Shown: positions 4,563 through 31,689 of the stretch, piece by piece
How the letters are laid out: each line of letters begins with the position of its first letter
How positions within the stretch are numbered: position 1 is the first letter of the stretch
From: Rickettsia endosymbiont of Gonocerus acuteangulatus
Lineage (GTDB): Bacteria; Pseudomonadota; Alphaproteobacteria; Rickettsiales; Rickettsiaceae
Assembly (NCBI RefSeq): GCF_964026435.1
Contig: NZ_OZ032147.1
Coordinates: 1 to 64,000, forward strand
Direction of reading: 5' to 3'
Length of the DNA stretch: 64,000 bases
Translations under genes and position numbers: made by a program
The notes under the pieces: model-generated
Databases searched by the model: none
The model's input: the letters and a program-made list of their open reading frames with translations, nothing else
Told to the model about the DNA's origin: nothing

Positions 4563-4681
4563 ATGTCATTCCCGCGTAGGCGGGAATCCAGAAAAAAGTA
4601 TAAATACAGCAAGCTTTTAAAGTTAAAAGCTCGATTTATCTCGCTTTATGCCTGGATTCCCGCCTACGCGGGAATGACATT
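4563..4681. repeat. Full-length palindromic repeat (type A)
   Basis: An inverted repeat of about 119 bp. The left arm reads gtcattcccgcgtaggcggg and the right arm ccgcctacgcgggaatgac; the AT-rich middle contains aaagctcgatttatctcgct. The same arms recur at 6834, 24141, 25752 and elsewhere, so this is the family reference here. It resembles rickettsial palindromic elements. Confidence 0.9.
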
Positions 4682-23590: not shown

Positions 23591-24086
23591 GGCGTAATAT
23601 GGCGGAATGAGCAAATATATACATAAAAGTCATAATGTTACGGTACTGCTGTATCACATGGTATTTCCAGCAAAATATCGCCGAGCAGTGTTTGACGTAT
23701 CAGTTGATCAAGTATTACGAGAAATATGTTTAGAGATAGAAAAGAGATATCAAATAAAATTTTTAGAAATAGGGGTTGATGAAGATCATGTCCATTTTTT
23801 GGTACAATCTGTACCAACCTATAGCGTAACAAAAATAGTAACAACAATTAAAAGTGTTACAGCTCGTCAAATATTTAGACAGTGTCCACAGGTAAAGAAA
23901 CAATTATGGGGTGGAGAATTTTGGACTGATGGATATTTTACGAGTACGGTAGGTAAGCATGGAAATGAGAATATGATAGGAAAATACGTAAAAAACCAAG
24001 GCAAGGAATATCAGAAACTGCATGAGGATCATCAGCTAGCTTTCTTCTAAAATACCCCGCTGCTTGCGGCGGGGATTACTTTTATT
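23560..24086 (+). mobile_element. IS200/IS605-family element (copy 1)
   Basis: The unit shared with 31163-31689 begins near tcttttgggtatattcccc and ends ggggattacttttat. Subterminal hairpins ccccgccgcttgcggcg and ccccgctgcttgcggcgggg are the expected ends of IS200-type elements. Exact tips are uncertain by a few bases. Confidence 0.88.
23607..24050 (+). CDS. tnpA: IS200/IS605-family Y1 transposase TnpA (copy 1)
   Basis: A 147-residue single-strand DNA transposase. It shows the HUH motif HVH (residues 61-63, in DEDHVHFLVQ) and the catalytic Tyr127 in NMIGKYVKNQG. It is intact and differs from copy 2 at one residue (His against Tyr139 near the end). No TnpB is present, as in IS200 itself. Confidence 0.95.
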   Translation: MSKYIHKSHNVTVLLYHMVFPAKYRRAVFDVSVDQVLREICLEIEKRYQIKFLEIGVDEDHVHFLVQSVPTYSVTKIVTTIKSVTARQIFRQCPQVKKQLWGGEFWTDGYFTSTVGKHGNENMIGKYVKNQGKEYQKLHEDHQLAFF

Positions 24087-24094
24087 TTCTAGTT

Positions 24095-24262
24095 CGTCAT
24101 CCCGTGGCAACATTGCCTGCGTGGATCGAAAAGTGATCTCGGTGTCATTCCCGCGGAGGCGGGAATCCAGAAAATTTAAATAAATACAATTCTTGATTAT
24201 AAAAACCAGTTATATTTATGTTTAGTAATTAATGGATTCCCGCCTCCGCAGGAATGACACCG
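24095..24262. repeat. Palindromic repeats (type A plus a type B fragment)
   Basis: A partial type B arm (cgtcatcccgtggcaac) leads into a full type A copy, gtcattcccgcggaggcggg to cctccgcaggaatgacacc. Confidence 0.85.
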
Positions 24263-24824: not shown

Positions 24825-25424
24825 ATGTTCACTAAAAAACAATTCTCAGAATTCTTTGTTACTTTCTTTTATATCGGAAAAATAAAATATTGCCCAGGCA
24901 CTTTCGGCTCTCTTGCAGCTTTTCCCCTATGCTACGCTATAATGTATTTTGTTGTTGATAATAAGATAATTATTCCTTTTGCAAATCTTACGCTTAATGA
25001 AGCTCAGCTTGTCAGTATGGTCATTATAGCCTCTGCTATATGTTTATTGCTTCTAATATTCGGCACATATTTTACTAAAATATACTTAAAATATACGGAT
25101 TCTAAAGACCCAAAAGAGGTAGTAATTGACGAGGTAGTAGGGCAGTTACTAACTGTTATTTTAGTATTTTTCTCAGCGATTTTTGCTAATGATTCAAACC
25201 TAGTAAAGCATTTAAGTACTTTAAAAGTTAGTATAATATTACTTTTTATATTACCTTTTTGTCTGTTCCGTCTTTTTGATATATTAAAACCTTGGCCTAT
25301 TAATTGGCTTGATAAAAATATTAAAGGTAGCCTTGGGGTTATGGTTGATGATTTAGCTGCTGCAATCTTCGCTGCAGTAACGCAATATGCAATTGTATTT
25401 GTGTTAATTGATAAAACTTATTGA
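24825..25424 (+). CDS. pgpA: Phosphatidylglycerophosphatase A
   Basis: A 199-residue inner-membrane enzyme that dephosphorylates phosphatidylglycerophosphate to phosphatidylglycerol. Family motifs are KYCPGTFGSLAAFP near the N-terminus, the acidic DPKEVVIDEVVGQLLTV and FRLFDILKPWPINWLDK, ending GVMVDDLAAAIFAA. Four membrane segments are seen. Its stop codon overlaps the -35 box of the promoter at 25421-25449. Confidence 0.94.
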   Translation: MFTKKQFSEFFVTFFYIGKIKYCPGTFGSLAAFPLCYAIMYFVVDNKIIIPFANLTLNEAQLVSMVIIASAICLLLLIFGTYFTKIYLKYTDSKDPKEVVIDEVVGQLLTVILVFFSAIFANDSNLVKHLSTLKVSIILLFILPFCLFRLFDILKPWPINWLDKNIKGSLGVMVDDLAAAIFAAVTQYAIVFVLIDKTY

Positions 25425-25449
25425 AGCTTTATGTTAAGTATGTTATAAT
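25421..25449 (+). promoter_or_regulatory. Consensus-like sigma-70 promoter upstream of a Tyr-rich leader ORF
   Basis: TTGAAG (25421-25426) and a perfect TATAAT (25444-25449) are separated by exactly 17 bases. It lies right after pgpA and reads toward a small ORF and then phhA. The predicted start is about 25456. Confidence 0.7.
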
Positions 25450-25477
25450 TAATTTATGATTAATTAAGGAGTAAATC

Positions 25478-25576
25478 ATGTATTACTATTATCAAAATTC
25501 AAAAATATCTCGATTATGTAATTTAACAAACAGGTTTAAACAATGTCTATCTCACCAACAACTATCCAGCTTATAA
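25478..25576 (+). CDS. Small ORF, possible Tyr-rich leader peptide
   Basis: A 32-codon ORF starting MYYYYQNSK: four successive Tyr codons (TAT TAC TAT TAT) follow the ATG. It has a strong ribosome site (AAGGAG, 7 bases before ATG) and a consensus promoter 29 bases upstream. The downstream gene in the same direction is phhA, which makes tyrosine from phenylalanine, so a tyrosine-sensing leader is possible. I see no clear attenuator with a T-run, and a palindromic repeat lies between this ORF and phhA. Alternatively it is a gene remnant in AT-rich DNA. Function is inferred only. Confidence 0.5.
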   Translation: MYYYYQNSKISRLCNLTNRFKQCLSHQQLSSL

Positions 25577-25677
25577 AAATTCCATCACTCACGTTTAGTC
25601 GTGTTGTGGCTAATTTAATATCTTTCACTACCCCATTCTCATATTACTACACTAAAGTTTCTTATTATCGATATTAA
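25543..25677 (+). CDS. Second small ORF overlapping the first, Tyr-rich end
   Basis: It overlaps the previous ORF in another frame. AGG lies 8 bases before its ATG. It encodes 44 residues ending FSYYYTKVSYYRY, and its stop codon lies in the perfect palindrome tcgatattaatatcga (25668-25683). Coding is uncertain. Confidence 0.3.
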   Translation: MSISPTTIQLIKIPSLTFSRVVANLISFTTPFSYYYTKVSYYRY

Positions 25678-25751
25678 TATCGAATTCTAAATTATTACCA
25701 ATTAACTAAATTCTCTTTTGTTTATTATTTGCGACTTTTTCGGTTTGACTT

Positions 25752-25869
25752 ATGTCATTCCCGCATAGGCGGGAATCCAGCATAAAGCGAGATGAATCGA
25801 GCTTTTAATTTTAAAAATCTGTTATATTTATGATTTTTTACTGGATTCCCGCCGTTGCTGGGAATGACA
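25752..25869. repeat. Palindromic repeat (type A)
   Basis: Arms atgtcattcccgcataggcg and cgccgttgctgggaatgaca flank agcgagatgaatcgagctt. It lies between the leader-like ORFs and phhA. From 25684 to 25751 nothing else is seen. Confidence 0.87.
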
Positions 25870-25928
25870 CAAATAGTACTTCAAAAGAGAATAACTAAAT
25901 TAAACAATATTATTCTTATGAGGAAACT

Positions 25929-26669
25929 ATGTCATCTTTATTAGACCACCCAATGGTGTGTTCTGAGCAATTGGAAAAATTTACTGAAACAGATCATGAA
26001 ATTTGGAAAACATTATTTAACAGACATACCGAATTATTAAAAAACAGAGCTACAAACGAAATAGTAGAAGGAATAGAAAAATTAAAAATTTGTAATGATC
26101 GAATTCCTAAATTTACCGAGCTTAATAGAATATTAATGAAAGAAACCAATTTTTCTATAATACCGGTAAAAGGCTTTATACCTGAAGATTTATTTTTTAA
26201 ATTTCTAGCAGAGCGTAAATTTCCTTCTACCTGTTTTATTCGTCAGCCTCATCAACTTGATTATTTGGAAGAACCCGATATATTCCATGACGTTTTCGGT
26301 CATGTGCCGTTACTTGTAAATCCCGTATTTGCTGACTTTATGCAGCAATTTGGGCTAAAAGGTTTAGAAGCCATTGAAGCGGGTATGCTTAAATTTGCCT
26401 CAGCTCTATATTGGTTTACGGTTGAATTCAGGCTCATCCAGTCAAATGATAACTTGCGAATATACGGAGCTGGTATTATTTCCTCTAAAGGTGAATCTAT
26501 TTACTCTTTAGAATCAGAAATTCCTATGCGTTTGGAGTTTGATTTAAATAAGGTGATAAAAACAGAGTATGAGACGGATTCTTTCCAGAAAACATATTTT
26601 GTAATTAAAAGTTTTCAACAGCTATTTGATATGCTAAATAATCTAGACTGGAAAAAGATAAAACAATAA
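25929..26669 (+). CDS. phhA: Phenylalanine 4-hydroxylase
   Basis: A 246-residue iron- and pterin-dependent aromatic amino acid hydroxylase that converts Phe to Tyr. The iron-binding FHDVFGHVPLL (two His of the facial triad) and the Glu in ALYWFTVEFRL are present, with FIRQPHQLDYLEEPDI upstream. It has only the catalytic domain, as usual in bacteria. The ribosome site is TGAGGAAAC. The next gene, 21 bases on, encodes the dehydratase that recycles the pterin cofactor, a classical phhA-phhB pair. Rickettsiae import most amino acids, so a role in host tyrosine or pterin chemistry is open. Confidence 0.95.
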   Translation: MSSLLDHPMVCSEQLEKFTETDHEIWKTLFNRHTELLKNRATNEIVEGIEKLKICNDRIPKFTELNRILMKETNFSIIPVKGFIPEDLFFKFLAERKFPSTCFIRQPHQLDYLEEPDIFHDVFGHVPLLVNPVFADFMQQFGLKGLEAIEAGMLKFASALYWFTVEFRLIQSNDNLRIYGAGIISSKGESIYSLESEIPMRLEFDLNKVIKTEYETDSFQKTYFVIKSFQQLFDMLNNLDWKKIKQ

Positions 26670-26690: not shown

Positions 26691-27032
26691 ATGACAATAA
26701 CATGTTCACTAAGTGATAAAAAATGTATTCCATGCGAGGGAGGTGTTCCGCCTATTGAGAAAAAAGAAATCGATAAATTACTATCTGAATTACAAAATGA
26801 ATGGATAGTGAATGAGTCAGGACATCTATACAAAAAGTATAAATTTCCTAATTTTATGCAACCTATAGAATTTGCTAATAAAATAGCTGAAATTGCCGAG
26901 CAGGAAGTACATCACCCAGATTTGACTATATCTTGGGGAGCTTGCATAGTAGAAATATGGACTCACAAAATTGATGGTCTTACTGAGAGCGATTTTATTT
27001 TAGCCGCAAAAATAGACCTTTTGCAAAATTAA
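26691..27032 (+). CDS. phhB: Pterin-4-alpha-carbinolamine dehydratase
   Basis: A 113-residue PCD/DCoH-family protein that dehydrates 4a-hydroxytetrahydropterin made by PhhA. The active-site motif [11 protein letters not shown] followed by [12 protein letters not shown] is diagnostic. The start [18 protein letters not shown] is a Cys-bearing N-terminal extension common in bacterial members. It follows phhA by 21 bases and must be co-transcribed. Its stop codon lies inside the arm of a palindromic repeat. Confidence 0.94.
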
Positions 27033-27153
27033 CTTCTAGAGGTAATTTGTACGTCAATCCGGTACTCGGATCCTCACGTAGGTTTACTACGCTGCGGTCC
27101 TGCGTTCCGTGTTTCTTTCAAATTCCTCTCTATAAGTTAAATTTTGCAAGTAG
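27020..27153. repeat. Palindromic repeat of another kind
   Basis: Inverted arms ttttgcaaaattaacttc and gttaaattttgcaag, with aggtaattt matched by aaattcct inside, enclose a GC-richer core (ggtactcggatcctcacg). It overlaps the end of the dehydratase gene. A short type D remnant (tagccaatttttcaaat) follows near 27240. Confidence 0.75.
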
Positions 27154-31170: not shown

Positions 31171-31689
31171 TGGGTATATTCCCCGCCGCTTGCGGCGTAA
31201 TATGGCGGAATGAGCAAATATATACATAAAAGTCATAATGTTACGGTACTGCTGTATCACATGGTATTTCCAGCAAAATATCGCCGAGCAGTGTTTGACG
31301 TATCAGTTGATCAAGTATTACGAGAAATATGTTTAGAGATAGAAAAGAGATATCAAATAAAATTTTTAGAAATAGGGGTTGATGAAGATCATGTCCATTT
31401 TTTGGTACAATCTGTACCAACCTATAGCGTAACAAAAATAGTAACAACAATTAAAAGTGTTACAGCTCGTCAAATATTTAGACAGTGTCCACAGGTAAAG
31501 AAACAATTATGGGGTGGAGAATTTTGGACTGATGGATATTTTACGAGTACGGTAGGTAAGCATGGAAATGAGAATATGATAGGAAAATACGTAAAAAACC
31601 AAGGCAAGGAATATCAGAAACTGTATGAGGATCATCAGCTAGCTTTCTTCTAAAATACCCCGCTGCTTGCGGCGGGGATTACTTTTATT
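31163..31689 (+). mobile_element. IS200/IS605-family element (copy 2)
   Basis: Nearly identical to copy 1 (constant offset of 7603 bases), with the same subterminal hairpins. The upstream base context aatctctttt is also shared by both, so it may be the recognised target. Confidence 0.88.
31210..31653 (+). CDS. tnpA: IS200/IS605-family Y1 transposase TnpA (copy 2)
   Basis: Intact, 147 residues, HUH motif HVH at 61-63 and Tyr127. It differs from copy 1 by KLYEDH against KLHEDH at residue 139. The near identity of the copies points to recent movement. Confidence 0.95.
   Translation: MSKYIHKSHNVTVLLYHMVFPAKYRRAVFDVSVDQVLREICLEIEKRYQIKFLEIGVDEDHVHFLVQSVPTYSVTKIVTTIKSVTARQIFRQCPQVKKQLWGGEFWTDGYFTSTVGKHGNENMIGKYVKNQGKEYQKLYEDHQLAFF

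Follow-up and report, generated by a model that had tools for sequence, protein, structure and literature searches.

Layout of the phhA leader

The window is the whole 64,000-nt stretch of DNA analysed here, taken from the start of contig NZ_OZ032147.1 of the Rickettsia endosymbiont of Gonocerus acuteangulatus, whose genome (the source genome, G000) comprises 1,983,518 bases. On the forward strand, which carries all the leader features described below, pgpA (PF04608) is followed in order by a predicted promoter, a Shine–Dalgarno (SD) sequence, two short open reading frames (ORF1 and ORF2), a spacer of 251 nt, phhA and a Pterin_4a gene. The presumed regulated gene, phhA (25929–26669), encodes phenylalanine-4-hydroxylase (PF00351, Biopterin_H, Pfam E 2.5e-50), the identity proposed for it in an earlier note made from the letters of this sequence. 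Directly downstream, phhB (26691–27032) encodes pterin-4a-carbinolamine dehydratase (PF01329, Pterin_4a, E 1.1e-28) and is perhaps co-transcribed with phhA.

The predicted promoter is of the sigma-70 type, with TTGAAG (25421–25426) and TATAAT (25444–25449) separated by 17 nt; it matches the consensus at 10 of 12 positions, and a TG precedes the second box. Both boxes are identical in three other Rickettsia (G003, G013 and G012) and read TTGCGG-17-TATAAT in a fourth (G016) in an alignment of the five leaders, while by eye TTGACA- or TTGACT-like boxes precede ORF1 in G037, L037, G326, G029 and L039. The SD of ORF1, AAGGAG (25466–25471), is likewise identical in G003, G013 and G012. ORF1 itself (25478–25576, 32 codons, beginning MYYYYQNSKISRLCN) opens MYYYY, with ATG at 25478 and then TAT TAC TAT TAT, placing Tyr at codons 2–5. 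Re-reading of 25421–25492 found promoter, AAGGAG and Tyr run all present as the earlier note had described them.

ORF2 (25543–25677, 44 codons) lies in the −1 frame relative to ORF1 and overlaps it by 34 nt. It ends SYYYTKVSYYRY (SYYRY-stop), the second-frame ending to which the earlier note had drawn attention, and has six Tyr among its last 12 codons. The likely ORF2 SD is AGG at 25532–25534; by eye, AGG occupies the equivalent place in G003, G013, G037, L037 and L039, and is missing there in G012 (AAG), G016, G326 and G029. With an early-Tyr ORF1 overlapping a late-Tyr ORF2, the two features listed separately in the earlier note become one bicistronic leader.

A candidate anti-SD, AGTTTCTT (25656–25663), is marked by its complementarity to the phhA ribosome-binding site, AGGAAACT (25921–25928), with which it forms 8 bp including one G-U. 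It lies directly 5′ of the final Tyr codons of ORF2 and extends into them. Between the two elements lie the arms of an 11-bp bridging helix (25710–25720 and 25882–25892), which are 100% complementary and would, in the folding model, bring tail and SD together. The absence of a T-run terminator reported in the earlier note was borne out, as 25350–25960 contains zero terminator-like sites with 0.2 expected. Among the eight Rfam matches at 25300–26100 (E up to 1) there is no T-box covariance model, and none of the eight reaches the gathering score; seven overlap the palindrome-bearing spacer and the eighth is osmY (15.9 bits, 25356–25426).

Distribution of the leader and chance controls

Within the genus, phhA is present in five of 23 Rickettsia genomes and the leader in the same five, so that the Tyr run is kept wherever phhA is kept, as the earlier note had set out as its test. 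A DNA search with 25400–25750 gave matches in six of the 23 genomes, namely the five phhA-bearing ones and G020, in which the match covers 35 nt, resembles a promoter, contains no Tyr ORF and was rejected as a leader. In four of the five, phhA directly follows pgpA. The fifth, G016, has pgpA at 267839 and phhA at 1227514, and its leader (71% identity) precedes phhA; the leader therefore travels with phhA and not with pgpA. In the five-Rickettsia alignment, indels within both ORFs are multiples of three, and the mid-spacer is freely rearranged and the least conserved part. The tail of ORF2 contains six Tyr among the last 12 codons in all five. The PhhA of G012 is 97% identical to that of the source genome.

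On a wider scale, 7 of 85 family genomes have phhA, as do 28 of 261 sampled from the order; a wide scan for phhA relatives yielded 148 confirmed cases, of which 80 were kept. The two-ORF design is shared by ten loci: the five Rickettsia (G000, G003, G013, G012 and G016), two further genera from the same family (G037 and G029), a different family of the same order (G326), a proteobacterial MAG (L037) and a contig binned as Legionellaceae (L039). ORF1 and ORF2 overlap by 28–46 nt in the −1 frame in nine of these, the exception being G326, where ORF1 has merely 10 codons and does not overlap ORF2. Two further loci carry one short Tyr leader each, MYYYCFLLTIYKHK in L038 and MYCYGYFC in L040. The 12 leader-bearing PhhAs form a single clade with support 100/100 in a midpoint-rooted maximum-likelihood tree of 37 rows, comprising these 12 and 25 picked from leaderless loci, and a Pterin_4a gene lies downstream of phhA in all 12 clade loci. 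Leader sequence is strongly diverged in the other genera, and the Tyr ends are retained.

On the contig binned as Legionellaceae (L039, from G088), PhhA and leader group with Rickettsiales, the other matches listed being at most 48% identical to this PhhA; its placement reflects either horizontal transfer or a misbinned contig.

A profile of ORF2 searched against the 261 genomes of the order gave matches in 22. Five are strong (E ≤1.6e-14) and all lie upstream of phhA. The 17 weaker matches (E 2.9e-4 to 0.009) mostly cover profile positions 4–38, without the Tyr tail, and the three of them inspected as possible leaders elsewhere showed no Tyr leader.

The earlier note had cautioned that AT-rich DNA favours Tyr codons by chance. 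This is fair for the start of ORF1 taken alone: ATG followed by four Tyr codons occurs at nine sites in six of the 23 genus genomes, against seven for a reversed-pattern control, so the motif by itself is not decisive. The phhA leaders account for three of the nine sites; the six outside phhA were rejected as leaders because by eye no AGGAG-like site stands in front of them. The caution does not extend to the tandem. We defined the latter as an ATG ORF with at least three Tyr in codons 2–7 and, within 130 nt, an ATG ORF of 30–70 codons with at least three Tyr in its last 14. Among 147 loci this rule selects nine of the ten two-ORF clade loci, neither of the two short-leader loci and none of 135 loci outside the clade, the last being a sample drawn from two database releases in which the same genome may be counted twice. 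The early Tyr run is present in nine of the ten clade loci (G326 fails on ORF1) and the late-Tyr ORF in all ten; of the 135 outside loci, only L044 carries an early-Tyr ORF, and it lacks the second member of the tandem. At L140 a looser rule also picks up an ORF of 15 codons whose end is rich in Tyr, but its shortness kept it out of the count.

The outside sample consists of 74 of the 80 loci kept from the wide scan, 29 from 128 further matching genomes, 20 from the order scan and 12 additional loci. Incomplete loci (L181, L184 and L185) and short, broken or second matches (L201–L206) were excluded, and L063, L083 and L191 have less than 300 nt of upstream sequence available. Since most outside loci have a higher G+C content than the clade (G+C for part of the loci), shuffles are the better control for chance. 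Dinucleotide shuffling of the ten 600-nt upstream regions produced the tandem in 4 of 10000 sequences (0 to 2 per 1000 per leader), and an early-Tyr ORF alone in 0.5–4.1%. The earlier observation is thus confirmed and exceeds chance.

Predicted pairing between the ORF2 tail and the phhA SD

The minimum free energy (MFE) fold contains a tail–SD helix in seven of the ten loci. In the four near Rickettsia (G000, G003, G013 and G012) this is the 8-bp pairing given above for the window. In G037 and G326, TTCTCCAAT pairs with ATTGGAGAA over 9 bp, and L037 forms 7 bp of that pair. A different part of the ORF2 tail sits on the phhA SD in the MFE fold of L039, and in those of G016 and G029 segments elsewhere in the ORF2 end or region are paired with the area around the phhA start, which is a post-hoc reading. 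Over the whole leader, the mean SD–tail pairing probability is 0.97 in G037, 0.92 in G326, 0.83 in L037 and 0.58 in L039. It averages 0.31–0.35 over a fixed 8-nt zone in G003, G013 and G012, with maxima of 0.85–0.95. The helix is weak in the source genome (mean 0.14, maximum 0.30), and for G016 and G029 whole-leader folding gives probabilities near 0 at the homologous place. The spacer that separates ORF2 from phhA measures 127–251 nt in the five Rickettsia, 146 nt in G029 and 46–65 nt in G037, L037, G326 and L039; in the four near Rickettsia the bridging inverted repeat encloses differing inserts between arms that are the same or nearly the same.

Both the tail and the SD arms differ between clades, yet they match best within their own clade. 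The advantage of own over cross pairing is 6.1 to 10.1 kcal/mol in the four pairs tested (G000 or G003 against G037, G326 or L037), with 9.5 kcal/mol for both G003/G326 and G003/G037. Of 2000 codon-permuted pairs, the clade-test value was reached by 1 for G003/G326, 7 for G000/G037, 15 for G003/G037 and 75 for G003/L037; the corresponding numbers among 2000 synonymous pairs were 51, 66, 112 and 130. The sequences are related, and the tests are non-independent. Within Rickettsia, the G003/G016 test gave 53 permuted and 249 synonymous pairs of 2000, and the G016/G037, G003/L039 and G029/G037 tests were unconvincing, at 168 to 463 of 2000. Since pyrimidines dominate in the tail and purines in the SD, some pairing is expected regardless.

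Recoding of individual tails points to a modest effect. Synonymously recoded tails attained the observed energy with frequencies of 0.014 in G037, 0.017 in G326, 0.058 in G000, 0.12–0.13 in G003, G013 and G012, 0.18 in L037, 0.30 in G016, 0.36 in L039 and 1.0 in G029; with two of ten loci at or below 0.05, the complementarity is modest against composition. Permuting nine tail codons gave values at or below 0.05 in five of ten loci (the four near Rickettsia and G326). Permutation of the last codons with refolding did so in one of ten, and the observed value exceeded the null mean in eight of ten.

We modelled the ribosome footprint as a sliding mask of 29 nt. Placed on the tail Tyr codons, it made the phhA SD easier to open in nine of ten loci, the saving at the best Tyr codon ranging from 0.6 to 4.4 kcal/mol; in G029 opening became harder. 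The gain in the source genome is only 0.5–0.6 kcal/mol. In G003 and G013 a footprint over the spacer close to the SD saves more than one on the tail, and in G016 footprints elsewhere have an effect equal to that of the tail footprint. Opening the ORF2 site costs 1.8–3.7 kcal/mol in nine of ten loci and 6.0 kcal/mol in G326, and masks imitating a stall on ORF1 shift access to ORF2 by at most 1.1 kcal/mol; control of ORF2 by ORF1 via secondary structure was accordingly set aside as unsupported.

Proposed tyrosine-responsive control and its alternatives

The best explanation, in which we place moderate confidence, is a tyrosine-responsive translational attenuator upstream of phhA. The Tyr leader itself is near certain and control of phhA by it is very likely; masking of the SD is the best mechanism, although not a proven one. 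We infer that one transcript, starting from the promoter at 25421–25449, would carry ORF1, ORF2, phhA and probably phhB. With charged Tyr-tRNA plentiful, ribosomes would complete ORF2 and depart, after which the tail (25656–25663) would pair with the phhA site (25921–25928) and phhA would be poorly translated. With tyrosine short, a ribosome would wait at the Tyr codons that end ORF2 (25663–25674). These codons sit at the anti-SD's 3′ edge, so a ribosome waiting there would cover it, leaving the phhA site free and allowing phenylalanine to be converted to tyrosine. That the product of PhhA is tyrosine counts in support of a Tyr-responsive reading. Points on the other side are the loss of some tail Tyr codons to Phe, Trp or Cys in G037 and G326, the shortened ORF1 of G326 and, for the helix, the missing pairing at the homologous place in G016 and G029. 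Upstream of ORF2, ORF1 may provide another Tyr gauge, perhaps via ribosomes passing over the start of ORF2 or via a stabilised mRNA 5′ end; G326 seemingly manages with an ORF1 remnant. In its most complete form, which we put forward only tentatively, the leader would be a two-stage tyrosine gauge with its ORFs in series, allowing translation of phhA only when Tyr-tRNA is short, retained among Rickettsiales symbionts and transferred together with phhA as a unit. The earlier note had suggested that ribosome stalling on Tyr codons regulates phhA as in amino-acid attenuators. Conservation supports the regulatory leader, and the evidence favours masking of the ribosome-binding site over a transcription terminator.

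Nascent-peptide arrest would be served by identical anti-SD geometry. An ORF2 C terminus of the form S-[YF]-[YW]-R-Y-stop could stall the ribosome at the stop codon in the presence of free Phe or Tyr and so unmask phhA; TnaC and SpeFL are arrest-peptide precedents for stalling at a stop codon. Such a role would suit the R-Y-stop end, kept in eight of ten loci despite drift of the peptide bodies, and the tails of G037 and G326, in which Tyr gives way to Phe or Trp. However, the ORF2 termini of G029 and L039 depart from this pattern, and the Arg codon is kept as CGA in nine of ten loci, a hint of effects at the level of codons. The piling up of Tyr in the last 12 codons of the five Rickettsia also speaks against arrest, and Tyr at codons 2–5 of ORF1 would come too early for an arrest peptide borne in the tunnel. 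We consider this reading unlikely.

Transcription attenuation that depends on Rho or on coupling strikes us as rather improbable. Plentiful Tyr would here leave an untranslated stretch exposed after ORF2 and lead to termination, which a stalled ribosome would prevent. The lack of an intrinsic terminator in 25350–25960 and the long untranslated spacers of the five Rickettsia and G029 agree with such a scheme, but the 46–65 nt available in G037, L037, G326 and L039 are short for Rho loading, and the mid-spacer is the very part that Rickettsia conserve least.

The possibility that ORF1 and ORF2 encode a pair of small functional proteins, Tyr-rich by happenstance, would explain why both frames stay open across genera, and it draws on the close pair G003/G012, whose ORF2 differs at 1, 0 and 6 sites in codon positions 1, 2 and 3, in 6 synonymous codons and 1 nonsynonymous codon. 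In another close pair, G000/G012, ORF2 differs at 0, 2 and 0 sites. Distant pairs tell against it: G003 and G016 differ at 4, 7 and 7 sites in ORF1 and at 17, 10 and 14 in ORF2, G037 and L037 at 12, 10 and 8 sites in ORF1 and at 17, 15 and 14 in ORF2, and most altered codons are nonsynonymous. By these sequence comparisons, the peptide bodies in distant pairs do not evolve like proteins; frames and Tyr-rich ends held constant while bodies drift fit a regulatory ORF. Neither ORF has a Pfam match, and the strong ORF2 profile matches lie solely upstream of phhA, all of which makes this reading very unlikely. Chance Tyr codons without regulation in AT-rich intergenic DNA, where TAT and TAC are frequent and an early-Tyr ORF alone does arise in shuffles, are scarcely credible given a tandem that is so rare in shuffles, recurs in nine of ten orthologous loci across genera and takes only in-frame indels within both ORFs among Rickettsia.

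The translational attenuator that we prefer shares parts with several known systems. Classical amino-acid attenuators include intrinsic terminators. Those of the trp, his and phe type have, upstream of the operon, a short ORF containing consecutive cognate codons, as does the phhA leader; no terminator-like site was found in 25350–25960, and the spacer spans only 46–65 nt in four relatives. Transcription attenuators such as trpL, pheL and AroR of Corynebacterium glutamicum resemble it in having leader-ORF codons for the pathway amino acid; the AroR leader contains Phe-Tyr-Phe, and Tyr availability is described as without effect (PMC11802643).

T-boxes sense uncharged tRNA by binding it directly, with no leader ORF involved. 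The likeness of tyrosine T-boxes, which are named in PMC1262725, lies in tyrosine supply as the signal.

The nearest known design is the LEU element of leuA in Actinobacteria, which likewise has a leader ORF with a run of cognate codons and resembles the pairing predicted here in its stem between leader coding sequence and the SD of a biosynthetic gene (PMC1262725). There the run of Leu codons has been proposed as the partner of the leuA SD. It differs in using Leu and not Tyr, in its single ORF, in pairing through the Leu codons themselves, in the pseudoknot and in its phylum (PMC1262725). The phhA leader has two overlapping ORFs, and most of its candidate anti-SD lies immediately 5′ of the final Tyr codons; the predicted pairing involves codons that border the final Tyr run. 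Two leader ORFs overlapping out of frame are found at ErmB, where ErmBL and ErmBL2, the two leader peptides, are encoded by shared nucleotides read in different frames and release of a masked ribosome-binding site is proposed, the function of the second being left open (PMC8274638). In erm-type leaders, stalling depends on antibiotic and not on a shortage of charged tRNA (PMC8274638). In the phhA leader, both ORFs contain codons for the amino acid that the downstream enzyme makes.

Among open-licence PMC papers we found neither a tyrosine-responsive leader peptide of this kind nor attenuation of phhA. If true, the two-stage gauge would amount to a tyrosine switch acting on translation through leader peptides, and the overlapping two-ORF design offers a testable regulatory architecture. 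Obligate intracellular bacteria are usually credited with little amino-acid regulation; an amino-acid-sensing leader kept with its gene across genera would directly read the tyrosine supply of the host cell. Arthropod hosts require tyrosine for their cuticle, so control over a symbiont phenylalanine hydroxylase could matter in symbiosis.

Repeats surround and interrupt the locus. The palindromic repeat that the earlier note had placed between ORF2 and phhA is indeed there, inside the bridging helix (25755–25869, 26-nt arm, eight matches within the window), but it is missing at this site in the four other leader-bearing Rickettsia and is therefore not part of the conserved core. Its arm, TCATTCCCGC..GCGGGAATCCAG, also occurs at 24145–24257, 2041, 4566–4677, 6838 and 60104. 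Within the bridging inverted repeat, the spacers of G003, G013 and G012 contain different inserts at one and the same site, as though the loop of the bridging helix tolerated insertions. Another repeat follows phhB at 27040–27110 (GTACGTCAATCCGG...CTACGCTGCGGT...) and looks by eye like an inverted relative of a repeat upstream of the G037 (L120) leader. Near-identical ORFs of 147 amino acids, beginning MSKYIHKSHNVTVLLYHMVFPAKYRR, lie at 23607–24050 and 31210–31653; they resemble IS200/IS605-type transposases.
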